A stretch of DNA of 64,000 nt from Haloarcula sp. H-GB4 (GTDB lineage Archaea > Halobacteriota > Halobacteria > Halobacteriales > Haloarculaceae). Every line of letters begins with the position of its first letter. The first letter of the stretch is position 1. Below the pieces are notes generated by a model, which saw only the letters and a program-made list of their open reading frames with translations, did no database searches and had not been told where the DNA came from. A program made the position numbers and the translations under genes. This document shows, piece after piece, positions 599-63,764 of this stretch. The stretch covers positions 496,001 through 560,000 of the forward strand of contig NZ_JAVDDX010000001.1 in the NCBI RefSeq assembly GCF_030848575.1. The letters run 5' to 3'.

Positions 599-822
599 AC
601 CGCCACGTTGGGGAGTCCGTCCTAAAGCGCTTTCGCAGTGTGAAATTATTTCACACCGTGAATGTCCGCCACGGGTGTTCGGCCGTTTCGCGTTATGTAA
701 TATTTTCTAAACGGGCCTATAAGCCTCGATACCGTACCGTAGAGTACGATGACTCAGGTTTCTTCACGTGCTCTCTCTGTCGGCTGTGCAGTCGTATCAG
801 AAACAAGATACGAGGTGGCGGT

Positions 823-1803
823 ATGATTTCGCGCCGGACGCTCGCCCTTGCTGCTGTTGCCAGTGTTCTGCTTGGTGGGACCTTCGTCGGCGCGAAGGCC
901 GGTCTGTCGTATCTCCCGCCACTTCTGTTCGTCGCCCTACGGTTCGATATCGCCGCCGTCGTGCTCCTCGGCTACGTTGTCGTGACGCGGTCCCGAGACG
1001 AACTGCTCCCACAGACCCGCGGCGACGTGCTGGGGATTCTCTCGACGGGCCTGTTCGCGCTCGGTCTCGCGAACGCACTGATATTCGTGGGTCAGCAGTC
1101 CGCCACCAGTGCGGTTGCCGCTATCATCTTCAGTCTCAACCCGATACTGACGCCGGTGTTCGCCGCTCTCTTGCTCTCCGACGAACGACTTTCGGCCCGC
1201 GGCGGTCTTGGGATGGTTATCGGCCTGCTCGGCGTCGGTCTCGTCGTCAGTCCCGATCCGGCGATGCTCCTGAGCGGGGGCATCGGCAAGCTCATCCTGT
1301 TCGCCGGCGCGACCAGCGCGGCGCTGGGTAGCGTCCTCATCCGGTGGTCCGGTGGCGGCCTGTCGAGCACGGTCCGGACCGCGTGGGCACTCCCCGTCGC
1401 CGCCGCGCTCTGTCACTCACTGAGCATCGGCATGGGCGAATCGGCGGCCACGGCGGTCTGGTCGCCGACTGCGATCGCGGCCCTGCTGTACGTCGGCATC
1501 TTCGCCGGGGCAATCGCCTACATTGCCTACTTCGGCCTGCTCGATATTACCGGTGCAATTCAGGCCAACCTCATCTTCTACGTGGTCCCCGTCGTGTCGA
1601 CGCTCGGCGGGTGGGCCCTGCTTGGCGAGGCGATCACCCCGACCGCAGTGGCGGGCTTCCTGACTATCTTCACGGGGTTCGTGGTACTCGGAAGCGAGTC
1701 GGTCAACATCCGGGCACTGTTCCCGGGTACTACTGACGAGTCTGACACTGTGTCTGAAAGCCTCGGGATGGCGGACGAGCCGCGCGGGTTCGAGTCTGAC
1801 TGA
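823..1803 (+). CDS. EamA/DMT-family transporter
   Basis: This 326-residue integral membrane protein is made almost entirely of hydrophobic segments, about ten helices in two EamA repeats. The first repeat starts near LGGTFVGAKAGL and the second near LFAGATSAALGSVLIRW. EamA proteins export or exchange small metabolites, but the substrate cannot be read from sequence. The frame is open further upstream, but I chose the ATG at 823 because a good ribosome-binding site (GAGGTGG) lies about 7 bases before it and the transmembrane repeat starts there. The C-terminal 35 residues are an acidic cytoplasmic tail. The gene is divergent from the partial regulator at 1-598. Confidence 0.85.
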   Translation: MISRRTLALAAVASVLLGGTFVGAKAGLSYLPPLLFVALRFDIAAVVLLGYVVVTRSRDELLPQTRGDVLGILSTGLFALGLANALIFVGQQSATSAVAAIIFSLNPILTPVFAALLLSDERLSARGGLGMVIGLLGVGLVVSPDPAMLLSGGIGKLILFAGATSAALGSVLIRWSGGGLSSTVRTAWALPVAAALCHSLSIGMGESAATAVWSPTAIAALLYVGIFAGAIAYIAYFGLLDITGAIQANLIFYVVPVVSTLGGWALLGEAITPTAVAGFLTIFTGFVVLGSESVNIRALFPGTTDESDTVSESLGMADEPRGFESD

Positions 1804-1923
1804 GATGGACGTAGGGCATCATATACTTGCTATCACCCCCATTTAGACTGGATAGTACACTGAGCCCGCCGGCCACAGAGGTTCAGTAAAGTATTCAGCC
1901 CACCGTTATGTATCCCCAAGGAC

Positions 1924-2139
1924 ATGAGTATCGGCGAAAATACACGCATTCGGCGACTATTGATACCGATAGGCGGACTGGCGCTAGTGCTTCAGTCGAT
2001 AGCGTTTGAGGGTACCTTCGGACTCGTGGAGCGTCCCGGTGTTTCCGGGCTCCTCAGAGACGTGCTGAGCGGTGGTCTATTGCTGGTAGCAACGGTCTGT
2101 CTCTTTGGTGGCGTGTATCTACGCCTCCACGATTCGTGA
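1924..2139 (+). CDS. small two-helix membrane protein, unknown function
   Basis: A 71-residue product starts with a basic N-terminus (NTRIRR). Two hydrophobic segments follow, around LIPIGGLALVLQSIAF and VLSGGLLLVATVCLFGGVYL. I do not recognise a family. The T/A-rich bases about 25-30 before the ATG could be a promoter. It stands alone between the EamA transporter and the convergent NSS symporter. The hydrophobic pattern makes coding plausible, but without homologues this stays a modest call. Confidence 0.5.
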   Translation: MSIGENTRIRRLLIPIGGLALVLQSIAFEGTFGLVERPGVSGLLRDVLSGGLLLVATVCLFGGVYLRLHDS

Positions 2140-2273
2140 GAGACATGCAGCCCTCCTCTACGTCCGTCTAGTCTGCCACGGCTGAAAAAACATCCCGCGA
2201 CGACCGCCCACACCGGGCGGTCACTGCGAACTGCTGAGAAGAAGGTCCGCGGGAAACCGACCCTGTTCGTCGT

Positions 2274-3611
2274 TTATATTGGCGGGATGATCGCGGGGTC
2301 CTCAGCGAGGAACAGCGTCTGCAGGCCGAGGGCCAGCGTCAGGACGACGCCGAGGATGACCACCGTTCGGACCATCCAGAGCCAGGTCGGACCGAATGCC
2401 CGGAGCCCACCCGTCCCCTGTCGGAGCTCGGCAACTGCGTTGGAGGAGAGCACCCAGCCGACGAACACTAGGATGAGCAGCACTGACAGCGGGAGGAACA
2501 GCTTGTACGCGAGCGTGTCGAACCAGCCGAACCACGCCAGGTCCCAGGCCGACGGCAGGCCCAGAATGAACAGTCCAACCCCGAGCATCGCCGACAGTGA
2601 CACCCGTGAGTATGACGTGTTGTCGACGCCGTAGGAGACTGCCACCTCAAGGAGGCTGATGGCAGAGGAGATCGCGGCGATGAGGACAACGCCGAAGAAC
2701 ACGACGCCGAGGAGTCGCCCTCCGGGGAGCTGTGGGAACGCCGACGCCATCGCGACGAAGATGGCCGACGGACCGCTGGTGTCGGGGCTGACGTTGATAG
2801 CGAAGAGAATCGGGAACACGACTAGCCCGGCCAGCACACCGACCATCGTGTTCGTCACGACGATGATGCCACCATCAACCGGGAGGCTCTCGTCGTCACC
2901 GATGTACGAGGAGTAGGTAATCATGGCCGCCATCCCCAGCGAGAGGGTGAAGAACGCCTGGCCAACTGCGAACGGAATCAGGTCGCCAGCGTTCGCCGCC
3001 AGCGTGGAGAAGTCCGGTGAGAGGAAGTAGCTGTAGCCAGCCCCAGCTCCCTCAAGCGTGGTGACCCAGGCCGCCATCCCGAGCATGAGAATCACGATAC
3101 TGGGGACCATCACCTTTGTCGCTTTCTCGATACCGTCCTCGACACCCACTGCGACGATACCGACACAGATCAGCAGGAACAGTGCCTGTCCGAGGACAGC
3201 TTCTGGCCCACTTGAGATGGCTCCGAAGTACTCCGCGGAATTTCCGAAGTATGCGCCCGTTGCGCTACCAAGGATATACCGCATGACCCACCCGCCGACG
3301 ACGTTGTAATACGAGAGGATCCAGAATCCCGTAAAGACGCCCAGACCACCGACGACCCGCCACTGCTTGAATCCGAGTTCAGCGAACGCGTCGACGGCAT
3401 TACGGTTCGTTCGCCGCCCGATGATGAACTCTGCCAGCATTGCCGGGAAGCCGATGAGCAATACGGCGGCGAGGTAAAAGACGAGGAACACTGCGCCGCC
3501 GTTTGTCGCGGTCTTGAACGGGAACTGCCAGATGTTTCCGAGACCAACTGCGCTACCGATTGCTGCGAGAAGGAACCCGAGCCGTGAGGCCCACGTTTCT
3601 CTGTCACTCAT
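2274..3611 (-). CDS. neurotransmitter:sodium symporter (NSS/SNF) family transporter
   Basis: The 445-residue protein has the LeuT-like fold layout, with 11-12 transmembrane segments. The N-terminal helix 1 region holds the signature RLGFLLAAIGSAVGLGNIW, where the unwound helix binds substrate and sodium, followed by FPF and GGAVFLVFY. Family members couple uptake of an amino acid or similar small molecule to the sodium gradient, which suits a halophile. Length fits prokaryotic NSS proteins. Exact substrate unknown. It is a single gene with its own promoter 26-33 bp upstream of the ATG. Confidence 0.93.
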   Translation of the reverse strand: MSDRETWASRLGFLLAAIGSAVGLGNIWQFPFKTATNGGAVFLVFYLAAVLLIGFPAMLAEFIIGRRTNRNAVDAFAELGFKQWRVVGGLGVFTGFWILSYYNVVGGWVMRYILGSATGAYFGNSAEYFGAISSGPEAVLGQALFLLICVGIVAVGVEDGIEKATKVMVPSIVILMLGMAAWVTTLEGAGAGYSYFLSPDFSTLAANAGDLIPFAVGQAFFTLSLGMAAMITYSSYIGDDESLPVDGGIIVVTNTMVGVLAGLVVFPILFAINVSPDTSGPSAIFVAMASAFPQLPGGRLLGVVFFGVVLIAAISSAISLLEVAVSYGVDNTSYSRVSLSAMLGVGLFILGLPSAWDLAWFGWFDTLAYKLFLPLSVLLILVFVGWVLSSNAVAELRQGTGGLRAFGPTWLWMVRTVVILGVVLTLALGLQTLFLAEDPAIIPPI

Positions 3612-3838: not shown

Positions 3839-4549
3839 TCAGACCTCGCCGTACACCGGCACCGCCGCACCGCTGGTCACGGTTGCGGTGTCAGAACAGA
3901 GGAACAACAGGACGCCGGCGATGTCTTTCGGATCGACCCACGTCTCGAAGTCAGCGTCGGGCATCATCTCGCGGTTCATCGGGGTATCGATGACGCTGGG
4001 CATGACGGCGTTGGCTCGCACGGACCCGAGGTTCTCCGCCGCGATAGTCTCTGTTAGCAGTCGGACGCCGGCTTTCGACGCTCGGTAGAGTCCGTCGCCT
4101 GCACCGCCTTCGAGTGACGACCGCGCGGAGACAGAGACGATCGCGCCCTCGCCAGCCCGCAAGTGTGGAATCGCGTGTTTCGACGCCAGAAACATCGTCT
4201 TCAGGTTCACATCGAACAGGAAATCGAACGTATCCGCATCCGTCTCGTGGATCGGTGTGCCGCCGCGCCACGTTCCGGCGATGTTCAGCAAGTAGTCCAA
4301 CTGCCCGTGCTCGTCGACGACCGCGTCGATGGTGTCGGCGACGTCGTCCTCGTCGCTGAAGTCCGCCCGGTAGAAACCCACACGTTCGGGGTCGGCCAAC
4401 AGGAAATCCTCGGTGTTCGGTTCGACAATGTCACTGCCACAGACGGTCGCCCCGGCTTCGAGGAACGCGTTTGCGACCGCGCTGCCCAGCGCCCCGCCGA
4501 TACCCGTAACCAGTGCTACCTCGCCGTCGAAATTAAACTCGGCTGACAT
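3839..4549 (-). CDS. short-chain dehydrogenase/reductase (SDR)
   Basis: A 236-residue Rossmann-fold oxidoreductase. The nucleotide-binding glycine motif TGIGGALG lies near residue 14, the acidic residue after beta-2 (GSDIVEP) suggests NAD preference, NIAG is the conserved NAG-like element, and the catalytic serine (VSVSARSS) and YRASK (YxxxK) are in order. The frame is open further upstream, but the ATG at 4549 puts the first beta strand at the normal distance and gives the usual SDR length. The substrate is unknown. It follows the quinone-oxidoreductase-like gene on the same strand with a 94-bp gap, so the two may be co-transcribed. Confidence 0.88.
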   Translation of the reverse strand: MSAEFNFDGEVALVTGIGGALGSAVANAFLEAGATVCGSDIVEPNTEDFLLADPERVGFYRADFSDEDDVADTIDAVVDEHGQLDYLLNIAGTWRGGTPIHETDADTFDFLFDVNLKTMFLASKHAIPHLRAGEGAIVSVSARSSLEGGAGDGLYRASKAGVRLLTETIAAENLGSVRANAVMPSVIDTPMNREMMPDADFETWVDPKDIAGVLLFLCSDTATVTSGAAVPVYGEV

Positions 4550-4643
4550 GGATGTGTCAACGGATAGTGGAAAGATAAAGGCCCCTCCCGAAAACCCGAG
4601 GTTCGAGTCCGTGGACCGACGATGGACGGTAACACCGGTCTGA

Positions 4644-5600
4644 TTACGGCGTGACGACGAGTTTGCCGAGGAAGCTGTCGTTGAGCACGTCCTCGTGAGC
4701 AGCCGGGACTTCTGCAAGGTCGTAGCGGCGGGCGACGACTGGCGTTAGTTTGTCGTCGGCCATGAGGGTCGCCAGTCGGTCCAGTACCGCGCCGAACTCG
4801 GGCGTGTTGAACATCGAGACGTGGTGGACGCTGAGGGCTTTCGCCCGGCAGCGTGGAACGCTCTCGAACGTCGCCGCGGGGTCGGTGTTCCCGATGGCGG
4901 CGACCTGCGCGCCCTGCGCGGCCACCTCGGCGTCGAACCCGAGATAGTCGTCGAGCCGGTGGTCAAGAATCACGTCTGGCGCGCCGGCGCCGACCACCGC
5001 GTCGGCGAGGTCGTCCCGGCTGTAGTCGAACACGTCGTCCGCACCGAGGTCGGCAAGTCGGTCGTGGTATTTCGGTGCTGCCGTCGTCATCACCCGTGCG
5101 CCATTCGCCGCCGCTAACTGGACCGCAACGTGGCCGACACCGCCGCTCCCGCCGTGAATCAGCGCCCGCTCAGCCGGCTCCAGCGCGCAAGCGTCGACGA
5201 GCGTCTGCCAGGCGGTGACACCGACGAGCGCGACGGCCGCGCCCGTCTCGGCGGACACCCCCTCGGGGAGCTTTGCTAGGTGTGATTCGGGAACAGCGAC
5301 GTACTCCGCACAGGTTCCCTGGAGCCAGTTGCCCAGTCCGGTCGCGAACGCCCGGTCGTCTTCGGTGACGGAAGCCACGCGCTCGCCGGTCGCGGCGACG
5401 GTCCCGGCACAGTCGGAGCCGGGTATCCAGGGCAGTTCGCCCGGTTCGTAGTCGCCGGTCCGGAAGTACGTATCGACCGGATTGACCGCCGCTGCCTCGA
5501 CTTCGAGCAGGACCTCCTCCGGTCCCGGTGTGGGTCGTTCGATGTCGTCGACACGGAGCACGTCCGTCCCGCCGTATTCGTGGAATCGTACAGCACGCAT
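4644..5600 (-). CDS. NADPH:quinone oxidoreductase-like MDR family enzyme
   Basis: A 318-residue medium-chain dehydrogenase/reductase. The N-terminal GroES-like domain begins MRAVRFHEYGG and contains NPVDTYFRTG and PGSDCAGTV. The cofactor domain carries the glycine motif HGGSGGVGHVAVQLA followed by VMTTAAPKYHD. No structural zinc cysteine cluster is visible, which fits the zinc-free quinone reductase (QOR) branch. These enzymes reduce quinones or enones with NADPH. It is upstream of the SDR gene on the same strand. Substrate not determined. Confidence 0.88.
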   Translation of the reverse strand: MRAVRFHEYGGTDVLRVDDIERPTPGPEEVLLEVEAAAVNPVDTYFRTGDYEPGELPWIPGSDCAGTVAATGERVASVTEDDRAFATGLGNWLQGTCAEYVAVPESHLAKLPEGVSAETGAAVALVGVTAWQTLVDACALEPAERALIHGGSGGVGHVAVQLAAANGARVMTTAAPKYHDRLADLGADDVFDYSRDDLADAVVGAGAPDVILDHRLDDYLGFDAEVAAQGAQVAAIGNTDPAATFESVPRCRAKALSVHHVSMFNTPEFGAVLDRLATLMADDKLTPVVARRYDLAEVPAAHEDVLNDSFLGKLVVTP

Positions 5601-5849
5601 TGGGATATGCGTCAGGTGGTATCGGGAAAACCTTTCCCCACGGACTGAGCGGCCCCGGATACGGTTTCAACATATCGCAGTACGTGGCGTGGCATCGCCG
5701 ACACCGAACGAGTCAGGTCGGTGCTCATCTCGGTGACTGTAGGGTGTATCATCGGAGCAATAGACTGTCCCAACGGTAGCCGCTCTGAGGCGATAGATGT
5801 CCACAGTCGGCCGCAGTGCTTATCATCGGTGAGAATTGCGCAACAACCC

Positions 5850-5857
5850 TTTATTAG
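5850..5857 (+). promoter_or_regulatory. TATA box of the htrII-sopII operon
   Basis: TTTATTAG is centred about 27 bp before the ATG at 5880, the spacing of a leaderless haloarchaeal transcript. This supports the ATG at 5880 over the GTG one codon upstream. Confidence 0.55.
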
Positions 5858-5879
5858 CACGTTTGTGTAGAATTGGGTG

Positions 5880-8201
5880 ATGGAATCAGATAGGGACTCG
5901 CCGCTCCCGAGCTTTATTGCTGGCAGTTACGCCGCCAGGCTCGGGTTGGCGCTTTCATTCGCGATACTTGTCATTATCGCTGCTGGAGTCCTGACAAGCG
6001 TACAGGCGTCCGCCACTCTCGAGGAGGACGTGGCGGACGACATCACCGCGCTGTCAGAGACGCAAGCAGTACAGTTAGACGACTGGCTGACGACATCGCG
6101 TCGGAACGTCCGGTCGACGTCGCGACTTCCCGTGTTCACCGATGGAACAGACACGGAGAAACAGCAACGACTGGAGGAATTACAATCCAACGAGGAACTG
6201 CCACCCGGTGTCGTCGCAGTACACTACTTCGACACCGAGACAGACGAGATTCGTGCCAGTTCGAATCAGGACTTCATCGGGGTCAACGCTGCCGATCAAG
6301 GGGCTCCGTTCGCTACGGACCCGCCACAGTTCGACGGGCCTGACGACACGCACGTGACGGAGCCGTTCTCCGTCTCAGTCGTTGACCACCCGATAGTTGC
6401 TGTCGTTTCGCCAGTCCCAGGGGACGACGACAGGGCGCTCGTGTACATGATCGACCTCCGGGAGAAGGCAGATCAGATATCAAACCAGCGCGATGGGTCA
6501 TTTACCACGGTCGTCAACACTGAGGGTGAGTTCGTTTCTCACCCCAACACCTCGATGATCGGGTCGACAGCACCGATTTCGCAGATGGAGTCGGACCCGC
6601 TGGGTACAGTTGAACCCGGAAAGAGTGCCTTCCACGAGACAGGCAGTATGCTGATGGGCCTGAGCCGCCTCGAATCGCATGAGTGGGTCGTTATGGTCCA
6701 CTCTGACCCAGAGGCCGCATACGCCCTGAGCGATCAGATCAACTCCGATCTCATCGGGCTCATTCTGCTTGCCGTCGTCAACCTCGGACTCATTGGGGTC
6801 ACGATCGGCGGGAACACGATCGCTTCGCTGCGGCGGCTTTCGGTGAAGGCCGAATCGATGGCCGATGGTGAGCTTGACGTTGATCTTGACACCTCCCGCG
6901 AAGACGAGTTCGGAACGCTGTACGCGGCCTTCGATAACATGCGGGCGAACCTCCGTACACAGATATCCGAAGCCGAAACCGCCCGGCAGGAAGCGGAGGA
7001 AGCCAAAGAGCAGGCCGAGGCCGCCCGCAAGGATGTTGAATCCGAGCGCAACGAGATGGAGGCACTGACCGGCCACCTCGAACTCAAAGCAGAGCAGTAC
7101 AGCAATACGTTGGAAGCTGCCGCCAACGGGGACCTCACCGCACGGGTGGACACGGACAGCATGAACGACGCGATGGCGGAAGTCGGCGAGGACATCAATA
7201 CGACGCTTGATGCGCTCGAAGACACCATCGCCGATATGAAAGCGTTCGCGACGAACGTCATCCAGTCCAGCGACCGTGTCAACTCGAACGCGGAACGGGT
7301 CGACCGGGCCAGCAAGCAGGTGTCGAAGTCGATCAACGAGATCTTTGAGGGAACGACCGAGCAAAACGAAGGCCTCGAATCAGCGGCTGCCGAGATGCAG
7401 AACCTCTCTGCAACCGCACAGCAAGTCGCCTCCTCTGCCCAGCAGGTCGCTGACACGTCCCAATCGGCTGCAGAAGTTGGTGAGGACGGCCGTGAAGCCG
7501 CACAGGAAGCTATTGCGGAGATGAGCGCTATCGAGGACGAGACCGGCGAGACCGTCGAAGAGATCAATGCGCTCGACGACGAACTTGACGAGATCGGCGA
7601 GATCGTCGGCGTCATCACAAGTATTGTCGAGCAGACGAACATGCTGGCGCTGAACGCCTCCATTGAGGCTGCCCACGCCGACGGTGATGGCGAAGGGTTC
7701 GCCGTCGTCGCAGACGAGATCAAGGGCCTCGCGGAAGAGACGAAAGAGGCCGCCGCCGACATCGAAGGGCGCATTGAGGGCATCCAAGAGCAGGCCGGCG
7801 ACACTGTCGAGACGATGGAGTCGACCAGCACCCGGATCACCGAAGGCGTCTCGACGGTCGAGGAGACCGTCGACGCGCTGGAAACCATCGTCGAGTACAC
7901 GGAAGAGGTCGACACTGGTATCCAAGAGATTGATCGGGCGACCGAGGAGCAGGCCCGAACCGCACAGGACGTGATGGGGACTATCGACGACCTGACGACG
8001 ATCAGTCAGCAGACGGCGACGGAGGCAGACACCGTGGCCGGTGCAGCACAGGATCAGTCCGCGTCTATCGACGAAGTGTCGGACTCTGCGACGGAACTCA
8101 GGCAGCGTGCTGACGATCTCGAATCGCTACTGGACCGCTTCACTGTCGAAAACTCCGCTGGGACGGGCACTGACAGTACGGCCGCTGTGGGGGATGACTA
8201 A
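5880..8201 (+). CDS. htrII: sensory rhodopsin II transducer HtrII
   Basis: This 773-residue methyl-accepting transducer has TM1 at about residues 20-41, a periplasmic domain of roughly 240 residues and TM2 at about 289-311. HAMP segments follow, then a long coiled coil and the conserved hairpin tip with [21 protein letters not shown] near residues 590-610. The large outer domain and total length match Halobacterium HtrII (also a serine receptor there) rather than the shorter HtrI. Its stop is two bases before the sensory rhodopsin ATG, so the receptor and transducer are co-translated. It relays light signals to the CheA kinase to control swimming. Long open frames on the opposite strand are GC-driven shadows. 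Ligand sensing by the outer domain is inference. Confidence 0.93.
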
Positions 8202-60525: not shown

Positions 60526-62265
60526 ATGGACGACGAGCTGCGAGACCGAATCACGGAGGCGGCGGAGACGAGCGCCCTCCTCAACGCGGTCAAACACGAC
60601 AGCGAGGCACAGGTCGGCGCAATAATGGGCCCGCTCATGGGCGAGAATCCGGAGTTCCGCGAGTACGGCGACGAGATACCCGGCGTTATCGCGCCGGTCG
60701 TTGAGCGAGTCAACGGGATGGATGCCGAGGAGCGCCGGGAGCGGCTGGCCGAACTCGCTCCGGAGAAACTCGAAGAGCTGGAGGCCGAGGATGAGGGCGA
60801 GGACCACCCGCTGCCAGACCTGCCCAACGCCGAAGAGTACGACACCGTCCGGATGCGCGTTGCGCCAAACCCCAACGGCCCGTGGCACATCGGCCACGCG
60901 CGGATGGCCGCCGTCGTCGGCACGTACAAACAGCGCTACGACGGGGAGTTCATCTGCCGCTTTGACGACACCGACCCCGAGACCAAGCGGCCGGATCTGG
61001 ATGCCTACGACGCAATCCTGGACGCTATCGGCTATCTGGGCTTCGAACCCGACGACGTGGTCAACGCCAGCGACCGCGTCGAGACGTACTACGAGTACGC
61101 CCGCGAGCTCATCGACAAGGGCGGGGCCTACACCTGCTCGTGCCCGCAGGGCGAGTTCTCCGATCTGAAGAATAACGGCAAGGCCTGTCCGCATCGCGAC
61201 AAGGACGCCGAGACCACGCGCTCGGAGTTCGAGGCGATGGTCGACGGCGAGTACGACAGCGGCGAGATGGTACTGCGGGTCCGGACCGACATTACGCATA
61301 AGAACCCCGCACTGCGGGACTTCGTCGCGTTCCGGATGGTGGACACACCACACCCGCGAACGGCGGCCGAGGAGTACCGCTGCTGGCCGATGCTGGACTT
61401 CCAGAGCGGGCTGGACGACCACCTGCTGGGGGTCACGCACATCATCCGCGGTATCGACCTGCAGGACTCCGCGAAGCGCCAGCAGTTCGTCTACGACTAC
61501 TTCGACTGGGAATACCCCGAGGTCATCCACTGGGGCCACGTCCAGGTCGATGCTTACGACGTACCGCTGTCCACATCGAGCATCGCCGAACTCATCGCTG
61601 ACGGCGAACTCGCGGACTGGGACGATCCGCGAGCGCCGACCGTCGCCAGCCTCGAACGGCGCGGCATCCGCGGTGAGGCCGTCGTCGATGCGATGATTCA
61701 GCTGGGTACGTCCACCTCGAACGTCGATCTGGCGATGTCCTCTATCTACTCGAACAACCGCGATCTCATTGACGACGACTCAGACCGGGCGTTCTTCGTC
61801 CGGGACAGCGACGACCACGGCGGTCTCGTTGAGCGCCAGATCGTCGGCGGGCCGGACGCTGGCGAACCGCCGTTGCATCCGGACCACGAGGAGCGTGGCC
61901 GCCGCGAGATTCCGGTGACCAGCGGTGTCGTCGTTGAGGGCGACGACCTGCCGGAACACGGCGATCGTATATGGCTCAAAGGATACGGCTGCGTGCGCCA
62001 CACCCGCGACGCATTCGAATACACCGGCGACGACATTGACGCCGTCCGCGAGGAGGGCGTCGACGTGATTCACTGGGCACCGGCTGATGGGCCAAAGTTC
62101 CGCTTGCGCACGATGGACGGCGACGTGTCTGGCGTGGCGGAATCTGGACTACTCGATTACGACGCCGACAAAGTCGTTCAGTTCGAGCGTATCGGGTTCG
62201 CCCGACTCGACGAGATCGCGGACGACTCAGACGCGGAGTCTGTCGCGTACTTCACACATCCCTGA
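60526..62265 (+). CDS. gltX: glutamyl-tRNA synthetase
   Basis: A 579-residue class I synthetase of the archaeal/eukaryotic type. The HIGH motif is RVAPNPNGPWHIGHARMAAV near residue 122, and the KMSKS-like loop VPLSTSSIAELI is near 348. A helical N-terminal part of about 100 residues and a C-terminal beta-barrel domain complete the form. It charges both tRNA-Glu and, as GatE implies, tRNA-Gln. It has its own T-rich promoter region (CGGCGTTTTGACC). Confidence 0.96.
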   Translation: MDDELRDRITEAAETSALLNAVKHDSEAQVGAIMGPLMGENPEFREYGDEIPGVIAPVVERVNGMDAEERRERLAELAPEKLEELEAEDEGEDHPLPDLPNAEEYDTVRMRVAPNPNGPWHIGHARMAAVVGTYKQRYDGEFICRFDDTDPETKRPDLDAYDAILDAIGYLGFEPDDVVNASDRVETYYEYARELIDKGGAYTCSCPQGEFSDLKNNGKACPHRDKDAETTRSEFEAMVDGEYDSGEMVLRVRTDITHKNPALRDFVAFRMVDTPHPRTAAEEYRCWPMLDFQSGLDDHLLGVTHIIRGIDLQDSAKRQQFVYDYFDWEYPEVIHWGHVQVDAYDVPLSTSSIAELIADGELADWDDPRAPTVASLERRGIRGEAVVDAMIQLGTSTSNVDLAMSSIYSNNRDLIDDDSDRAFFVRDSDDHGGLVERQIVGGPDAGEPPLHPDHEERGRREIPVTSGVVVEGDDLPEHGDRIWLKGYGCVRHTRDAFEYTGDDIDAVREEGVDVIHWAPADGPKFRLRTMDGDVSGVAESGLLDYDADKVVQFERIGFARLDEIADDSDAESVAYFTHP

Positions 62266-62417
62266 CACGGGCGAACCGCTGGCTCTGCTGGCCTAATACC
62301 GCTTTCTGTACCGCAACGACTCGCTTACGTTCTATCTGTCGTATGGCATCAGTTAACATGATTGGGGATTTTTTACGAACCACAACAATAGTGTCAAATA
62401 GATGGGGGTGATGGCCA

Positions 62418-62624
62418 ATGGCACTGCCAACAACCACACCGAGTTCATCGATGCGCGGTCTCGACCTCTCGTCCCGCTTGTTCGAAACCGGTAGTGACGA
62501 CTACGAACTGTACGAGGAAGACGAGGGAATCGCTGCGAACTACATGAACGGTATCCTCGAAGTGCGCCTACCCGTTGAGACGGGCGCGACAGCCCGTGGC
62601 AAGCAGATCGAGGTCGAAGGCTGA
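62418..62624 (+). pseudogene. Hsp20-like gene with internal deletion of the alpha-crystallin domain
   Basis: The 68-residue product opens MALPTTTPSSSMRGLDLSSR and LFETGSDDYELYEEDEG, like the start of haloarchaeal Hsp20 proteins. It jumps straight to IAANYMNGILEVRLPVETGA and IEVEG, the last strands and I-x-I/V tail of the domain. The central strands, about 50-60 residues, are absent, and the join (EED-EG) stays in frame. The frame is intact, so a short protein could still be made, but it should lack chaperone activity. The ribosome-binding site is good (GGGGGTGATGG). A T-run TTTTTTACGAA lies upstream. Confidence 0.65.
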
Positions 62625-62780
62625 CCGTCGGGCCACAGACGCACCGCCCGAGAGCCGACCTTTTTCACTTCGTTCGGAGGGAGGCAACTGACGATCAAGC
62701 CAGTCCCAACAGACCACGGTGGGATAGCGATGCCGACGCGTCGTTCAACTCCGGGACCGAGAGCTGATAGCGTCGGGCTT

Positions 62781-63764
62781 ATGTCCGCGACGGCCCGACC
62801 AATGCCCGTGACAGAACGCGCCCCGGAGTCAGTGACAGTGCAGCGCGACATTCCGTTCCATGAGGCGGGTGGCGAGACGCTGACGCTCGACCTGTACGAC
62901 GCAACGGCGGCCAGCGGCCCGAAGCCGGTTGCCGTGCTCGTCCGAGGTGGCGCGTTCACGTCTGGCGACAAGGGCGAGTTCGCCCGGCACGCGCTTGATC
63001 TCGCCGCGGACGGCTTTCTGGTCATCGAGCCGCAGTATCGGCTCGCACCGGAATGGACGTTCCCAGCGGCGCTGATCGACGTGAAGGCCGCTATCGAGTG
63101 GGCACGGACGGAGGGAGAGAGCTACGGCGCGGACACCGACCGAGTTGTCGGCATCGGCCACTCCGCGGGCGCAAACCTCGTTGTTCTGGCCGCGCTGACG
63201 GCAGATGAGCCCGGATTCGAACCCGAACTGTACCCCGGTTCGTCCTCGGCACTGTCAGTCGTCGTCGGCTATGCTGGCGTCTACGACTTCCACGCGCTCG
63301 ACACTGCCACTGACGTCCCAGCGGGTGAGGGCCATCGAGCGTATCTCGGCGGCGGGCCCGACGGTGAACCCGCAGCCTACGACCTCGCCTCGCCGGTCGC
63401 ACAGGTGGATATCGACGCCCCGCCGACGCTGCTGCTCCATGGGACCCACGACGACGTCGTGCCGCCGGCACAGTCCGAATTGCTGGCTGATGCCCTCGGT
63501 CCCATGACCGATGTGGTCCACGAGACGGTGCCGTCGGACCACGGGTTCCCGTTCCACGGCGCTCACTACGACGACGTGTACGAACGGACCGTCGAGTTCA
63601 TTCGGCGAATCGGAACCGACAGTCCGGGCACTGACGGCCCAGGGGGCACAGGCGAGGACACCGGCTTGCCCGACAGCAATCTGCCAGGATCGACCGACCG
63701 CATTGACGACCTCGGGTCGGGGGATATTCGCGGCTCGGATCGCCGCAACGGCCCCGGATTCTGA
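62781..63764 (+). CDS. alpha/beta-hydrolase (esterase/lipase type)
   Basis: A 327-residue alpha/beta-hydrolase. The oxyanion region is VAVLVRGGAFTSGDKGEFAR (RGG instead of HGG), followed by EPQYRLAPEWTFPAALIDVK. The nucleophile elbow is GIGHSAGANLVVLAAL, the acid is in LLHGTHDDVVPPAQSELL and the histidine in SDHGFPFHGAH. The pattern is that of HSL/BD-FAE-like esterases. A disordered Gly/Asp/Thr-rich C-terminal tail follows. The ATG at 62781 is preferred; one at 62730 gives a longer N-terminus. Confidence 0.88.
   Translation: MSATARPMPVTERAPESVTVQRDIPFHEAGGETLTLDLYDATAASGPKPVAVLVRGGAFTSGDKGEFARHALDLAADGFLVIEPQYRLAPEWTFPAALIDVKAAIEWARTEGESYGADTDRVVGIGHSAGANLVVLAALTADEPGFEPELYPGSSSALSVVVGYAGVYDFHALDTATDVPAGEGHRAYLGGGPDGEPAAYDLASPVAQVDIDAPPTLLLHGTHDDVVPPAQSELLADALGPMTDVVHETVPSDHGFPFHGAHYDDVYERTVEFIRRIGTDSPGTDGPGGTGEDTGLPDSNLPGSTDRIDDLGSGDIRGSDRRNGPGF

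Follow-up and report, generated by a model that had tools for sequence, protein, structure and literature searches.

Short peptides with activity that derive from small heat-shock proteins have been described (the alpha-crystallin mini-chaperones), and these peptides derive from the central strands. Among the haloarchaeal proteins, Hsp5 of Halobacterium is heat-induced (PMC1971269). The genes hsp5 and cdc48d appear there as entries 6201 and 6199 (PMC1971269), and the BRE/TATA core promoter of hsp5 has been reported to be sufficient for the heat response (PMC9133787). At 15 loci from several genera (e.g. L105, positions 4001-6651) an Hsp5-type hsp20 gene immediately precedes the gene for a Cdc48-type AAA ATPase, and these ATPases were 71-92% identical to the Halobacterium one. 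At the four Haloarcula loci of our named-genome scan gltX was nearby, and no match to cdc48 was obtained. Searching the literature for Hsp20 pseudogenes in haloarchaea returned nothing relevant.

The stretch analysed here (hereafter named the window) comprises 64,000 nucleotides from Haloarcula sp. H-GB4 and carries an open frame of 68 codons, which is very probably what remains of an Hsp5-type Hsp20 chaperone gene that became a pseudogene recently (Table 1). An earlier sequence-only reading had described this frame as an Hsp20 remnant in which the two ends of the protein are fused, and its open reading frame, coordinates and translation were all exact. The product (MALPTTTPSSSMRGLDLSSRLFETGSDDYELYEEDEGIAANYMNGILEVRLPVETGATARGKQIEVEG) corresponds to codons 1-35 of a 123-residue Hsp20 parent fused to codons 91-123. 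When the 68-amino-acid product was compared with Pfam HSP20 (PF00011), a score of 15.1 bits (E=0.024) was obtained, which does not reach the cut-off of 20.8 bits, and the match was confined to residues 34-66, i.e. the last strands. The C-terminal I-x-I/V motif is present as IEV within QIEVEG.

Table 1. Features of the hsp20 remnant and its surroundings (positions in the window).
Feature	Coordinates	Strand	Basis
gltX (glutamyl-tRNA synthetase; named from sequence), upstream neighbour fixing synteny	60526..62265	+	Present in all 32 genomes of the genus
Promoter core element TTTTTTACGAA, retained from the parent gene	62369..62379	+	Intact Haloarcula copies and other genera
Weakened Shine-Dalgarno sequence GGGGTGAT	62405..62412	+	Alignment
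Hsp20 gene remnant (very probable pseudogene), 68 codons	62418..62624 (stop codon included)	+	Open reading frame and alignment
Parent codons 1-35 (N-terminal arm, strand beta-2; private W11S, P18S)	62418..62522	+	Alignment
GACGA microhomology at the deletion join	62520..62524	+	Most parents with GACGACGAG at both ends
Parent codons 91-123 (strands beta-8 and beta-9, C-terminal IEV motif; private T98M)	62523..62621	+	Alignment
Alpha/beta hydrolase (esterase-like; named from sequence), downstream neighbour fixing synteny	62730..63764	+	Locus survey

A DNA search with positions 62380-62700 was performed in 32 genomes of the genus. Each of the nearest intact relatives gave two matches (positions 1-145 and 138-321 of the query, 84-91% identity), which bracket sequence absent from the window, and these relatives encode the 123-residue Hsp20 at the same locus. 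This confirms that both ends of the remnant are derived from an hsp20 gene, as had been proposed. The weak Pfam score of the product alone might suggest that it belongs to a separate family of small proteins with no relation to Hsp20; this reading, to which we give almost no credence, was refuted by synteny and by the DNA alignment, which shows homology to intact hsp20 at the same locus, to the left of the join as well as to its right. A chance resemblance to Hsp20 was rejected on the DNA homology flanking the join at the syntenic locus.

The locus was then surveyed in 31 relatives, which were read from gltX onwards. The hsp20 gene was intact between gltX and the alpha/beta hydrolase gene in eight of them (G007, G011, G012, G014, G017, G024, G030 and G031), and in some of these gltX and hsp20 are about 2.6 kb apart, with other sequence in between. 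In G014 a gene of 812 residues (L067, positions 713-3151, minus strand), apparently for a PAS-type sensor histidine kinase, lies in this interval; a similar 2.6-kb gap was seen in several other relatives, and none in the window, G012, G030 or G011. The true start of the hydrolase in the window is probably downstream of the first ATG (within 62730-62810), since in the more distant relatives most matches set in only at residues 10-34.

Alignment with the parents revealed that exactly 165 bp, corresponding to parent codons 36-90 (55 codons), are absent from the window. With the deletion ends located, the loss of the central alpha-crystallin strands and the conservation of the frame, both claimed from the sequence alone, were confirmed. 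Of the six intact relatives closest to the window, five have the 9-bp direct repeat GACGACGAG at both ends of the deleted segment, so that the short direct repeats sought in the parent sequence do exist; in G014, the remaining one, the right end reads GACGATGAG. The remnant retains GACGAG at the join, which fits either a join over GACGA with a shift of one GAC unit or a deletion of 162 bp accompanied by the loss of one GAC. As the join falls inside the 9-bp repeat, replication slippage or microhomology-mediated deletion would account for the removal of the 165 bp, and the frame would have been kept by chance (1 in 3), aided by the codon-phased GAC/GAG repeat. The deletions of two other genomes, G019 and G008, likewise end at or adjoin the right-hand GACGACGAG, and because of these three cases the motif may be a deletion hotspot.

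The structural consequence was assessed by AlphaFold2. For the intact L095 protein, strands were predicted at residues 29-34, 37-43, 52-57, 60-69, 74-83, 94-98 and 101-108; the deletion removes strands 2-5 of these seven (parent residues 37-43, 52-57, 60-69 and 74-83). With four of the seven predicted strands deleted, the alpha-crystallin beta-sandwich would be incomplete in the remnant, for which no confident fold was predicted (pLDDT 55, pTM 0.19). The deleted region of the parent is covered by sequence matches to solved Hsp20 structures.

Signs of decay were also found in the part of the gene that is left. Three private amino-acid changes were identified in the remnant (W11S, P18S and T98M), and W11S and P18S fall on residues that do not vary among 37 haloarchaeal homologues. 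A leave-one-out count over these columns gave at most one private departure for any of the intact homologues. The ribosome-binding site, which had been called good, is better described as weakened, since GGGGTGAT replaces the GAGGTGA of all intact Haloarcula copies: a base invariant in those eight copies has been lost (GGGGTGA in the window versus GAGGTGA in 8/8). These changes bear on whether an assembly error in the draft genome accounts for the missing 165 bp between short repeats. The draft comprises 15 contigs, it is the single genome available for its species and a repeat coincides with the join; however, a 9-bp repeat is far shorter than usual reads or k-mers, and such an error would not create W11S, P18S or the Shine-Dalgarno change, which makes this explanation highly improbable.

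Other properties of the remnant count against a pseudogene. The frame is open and the promoter core is intact; TTTTTTACGAA is also found upstream of intact Haloarcula copies, and other haloarchaeal genera have TTTTTTACGAA or TTTATTACGAA. The kept codons show 3 nonsynonymous and 4 synonymous private changes; these counts do not by themselves differ from those of the intact relatives and are too few to show a relaxed constraint, for which the two changes at invariant residues do speak. An open frame, a promoter and such substitution counts indicate a recent deletion or else a residual constraint. Since the promoter core has been kept, the remnant may still be transcribed, probably with no working chaperone being made.

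The same properties would be expected of a trimmed chaperone fragment made on heat shock, whose N-terminal arm and I-x-V tail cap, seed or inhibit Hsp20 oligomers. The open frame, the heat-shock-type promoter core and the C-terminal IEV have all been kept, and pairwise omega over the kept codons (Nei-Gojobori) is as low as between intact genes, with few changes to count. We nevertheless consider such a fragment very unlikely: no confident fold was predicted for the remnant, two invariant N-terminal residues have been lost, the form is absent from the other genomes among the 32 of the genus and gene loss in other species leaves no comparable product. Five other Hsp20 genes are present in the window genome, and because these paralogues are no more than 27-39% identical to the parent, the remnant would lack a cognate partner. 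A full-length protein of the same subfamily was not found in the window genome, and hence a cap or inhibitor of full-length Hsp20, as suggested in the sequence-only reading, is unlikely and gained no positive support. A heat-induced, translated 68-residue product that modulates the remaining Hsp20 proteins despite lacking the alpha-crystallin core is equally hard to credit; judged from the sequence, expression of the remnant is possible and a function unlikely.

Differently broken copies were detected at the same locus in seven genomes (G001, G008, G016, G019, G020, G025 and G026). Only 3' pieces are left in G001, G008, G020 and G025, whereas G016 retains about codons 57-123, its 5' end being absent, and in G026 the frame is lost after about codon 87. 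G019 (L078) carries a 60-bp in-frame internal deletion and has lost the start codon (now AGG) and the stop. This deletion, which ends at GACGACGAG as that of the window does, is the second in-frame internal deletion of the gene. No hsp20 copy was detectable near gltX in most other genomes of the 31 relatives surveyed. The 68-residue form itself was found in none of the other genomes among the 32 of the genus, and was absent from the 46 loci of the named-genome scan (full-length query; the species of the window was perhaps omitted). The same form at a different locus in related strains with no longer homologue, which would have counted against the sequence-only reading, was not found, and a longer homologue exists at the locus. 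About six independent decay events appear to be a fair minimum, since some of the pieces could be nested (G000/G001, G008/G020). A gltX tree was built to count the independent losses, and because its deep nodes were poorly supported, this minimum rests mainly on break points that cannot nest in one another.

Taken together, the repeat-flanked precise deletion, the loss of invariant residues and the independent decay in other species bear out the suggestion of a decaying pseudogene. An intact orthologue is present at the locus in eight genomes, and the lesion of 165 bp has GACGA/GACGACGAG ends. As other Haloarcula species broke the same gene differently, we are almost certain that the remnant is a gene in ordinary decay and no new mini-protein; the gene has decayed several times independently in Haloarcula, and the window holds one of these cases. 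The gene would be dispensable in the genus, perhaps since other Hsp20 paralogues remain. Taken alone, this is an ordinary pseudogene, and the wider pattern is of modest value: because the Hsp5-type gene without a cdc48 neighbour at the Haloarcula locus was broken differently in several species, the genus offers a natural series, from intact copies through partly deleted ones to others nearly erased, in which chaperone redundancy and microhomology deletion could be studied.

With regard to known systems, the parent (G007 copy) shares 69% identity with the homologue of Halobacterium salinarum, which is encoded directly before a Cdc48-type ATPase gene, as would be expected of hsp5, and we infer from this cdc48-adjoining homologue that the parent is of the Hsp5 type. 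The Halobacterium homologue shares the promoter core TTTTTTACGAA with the window; in contrast to it, the window copy lacks residues 36-90 and has gltX and the hydrolase gene as its neighbours, not cdc48. The strands from which the alpha-crystallin mini-chaperones derive are part of what has been deleted in the remnant. Although the window copy is still open in frame and has kept its promoter core, it resembles deletion pseudogenes between short direct repeats in the exact deletion at a repeat, the loss of invariant residues and the parallel decay in relatives.
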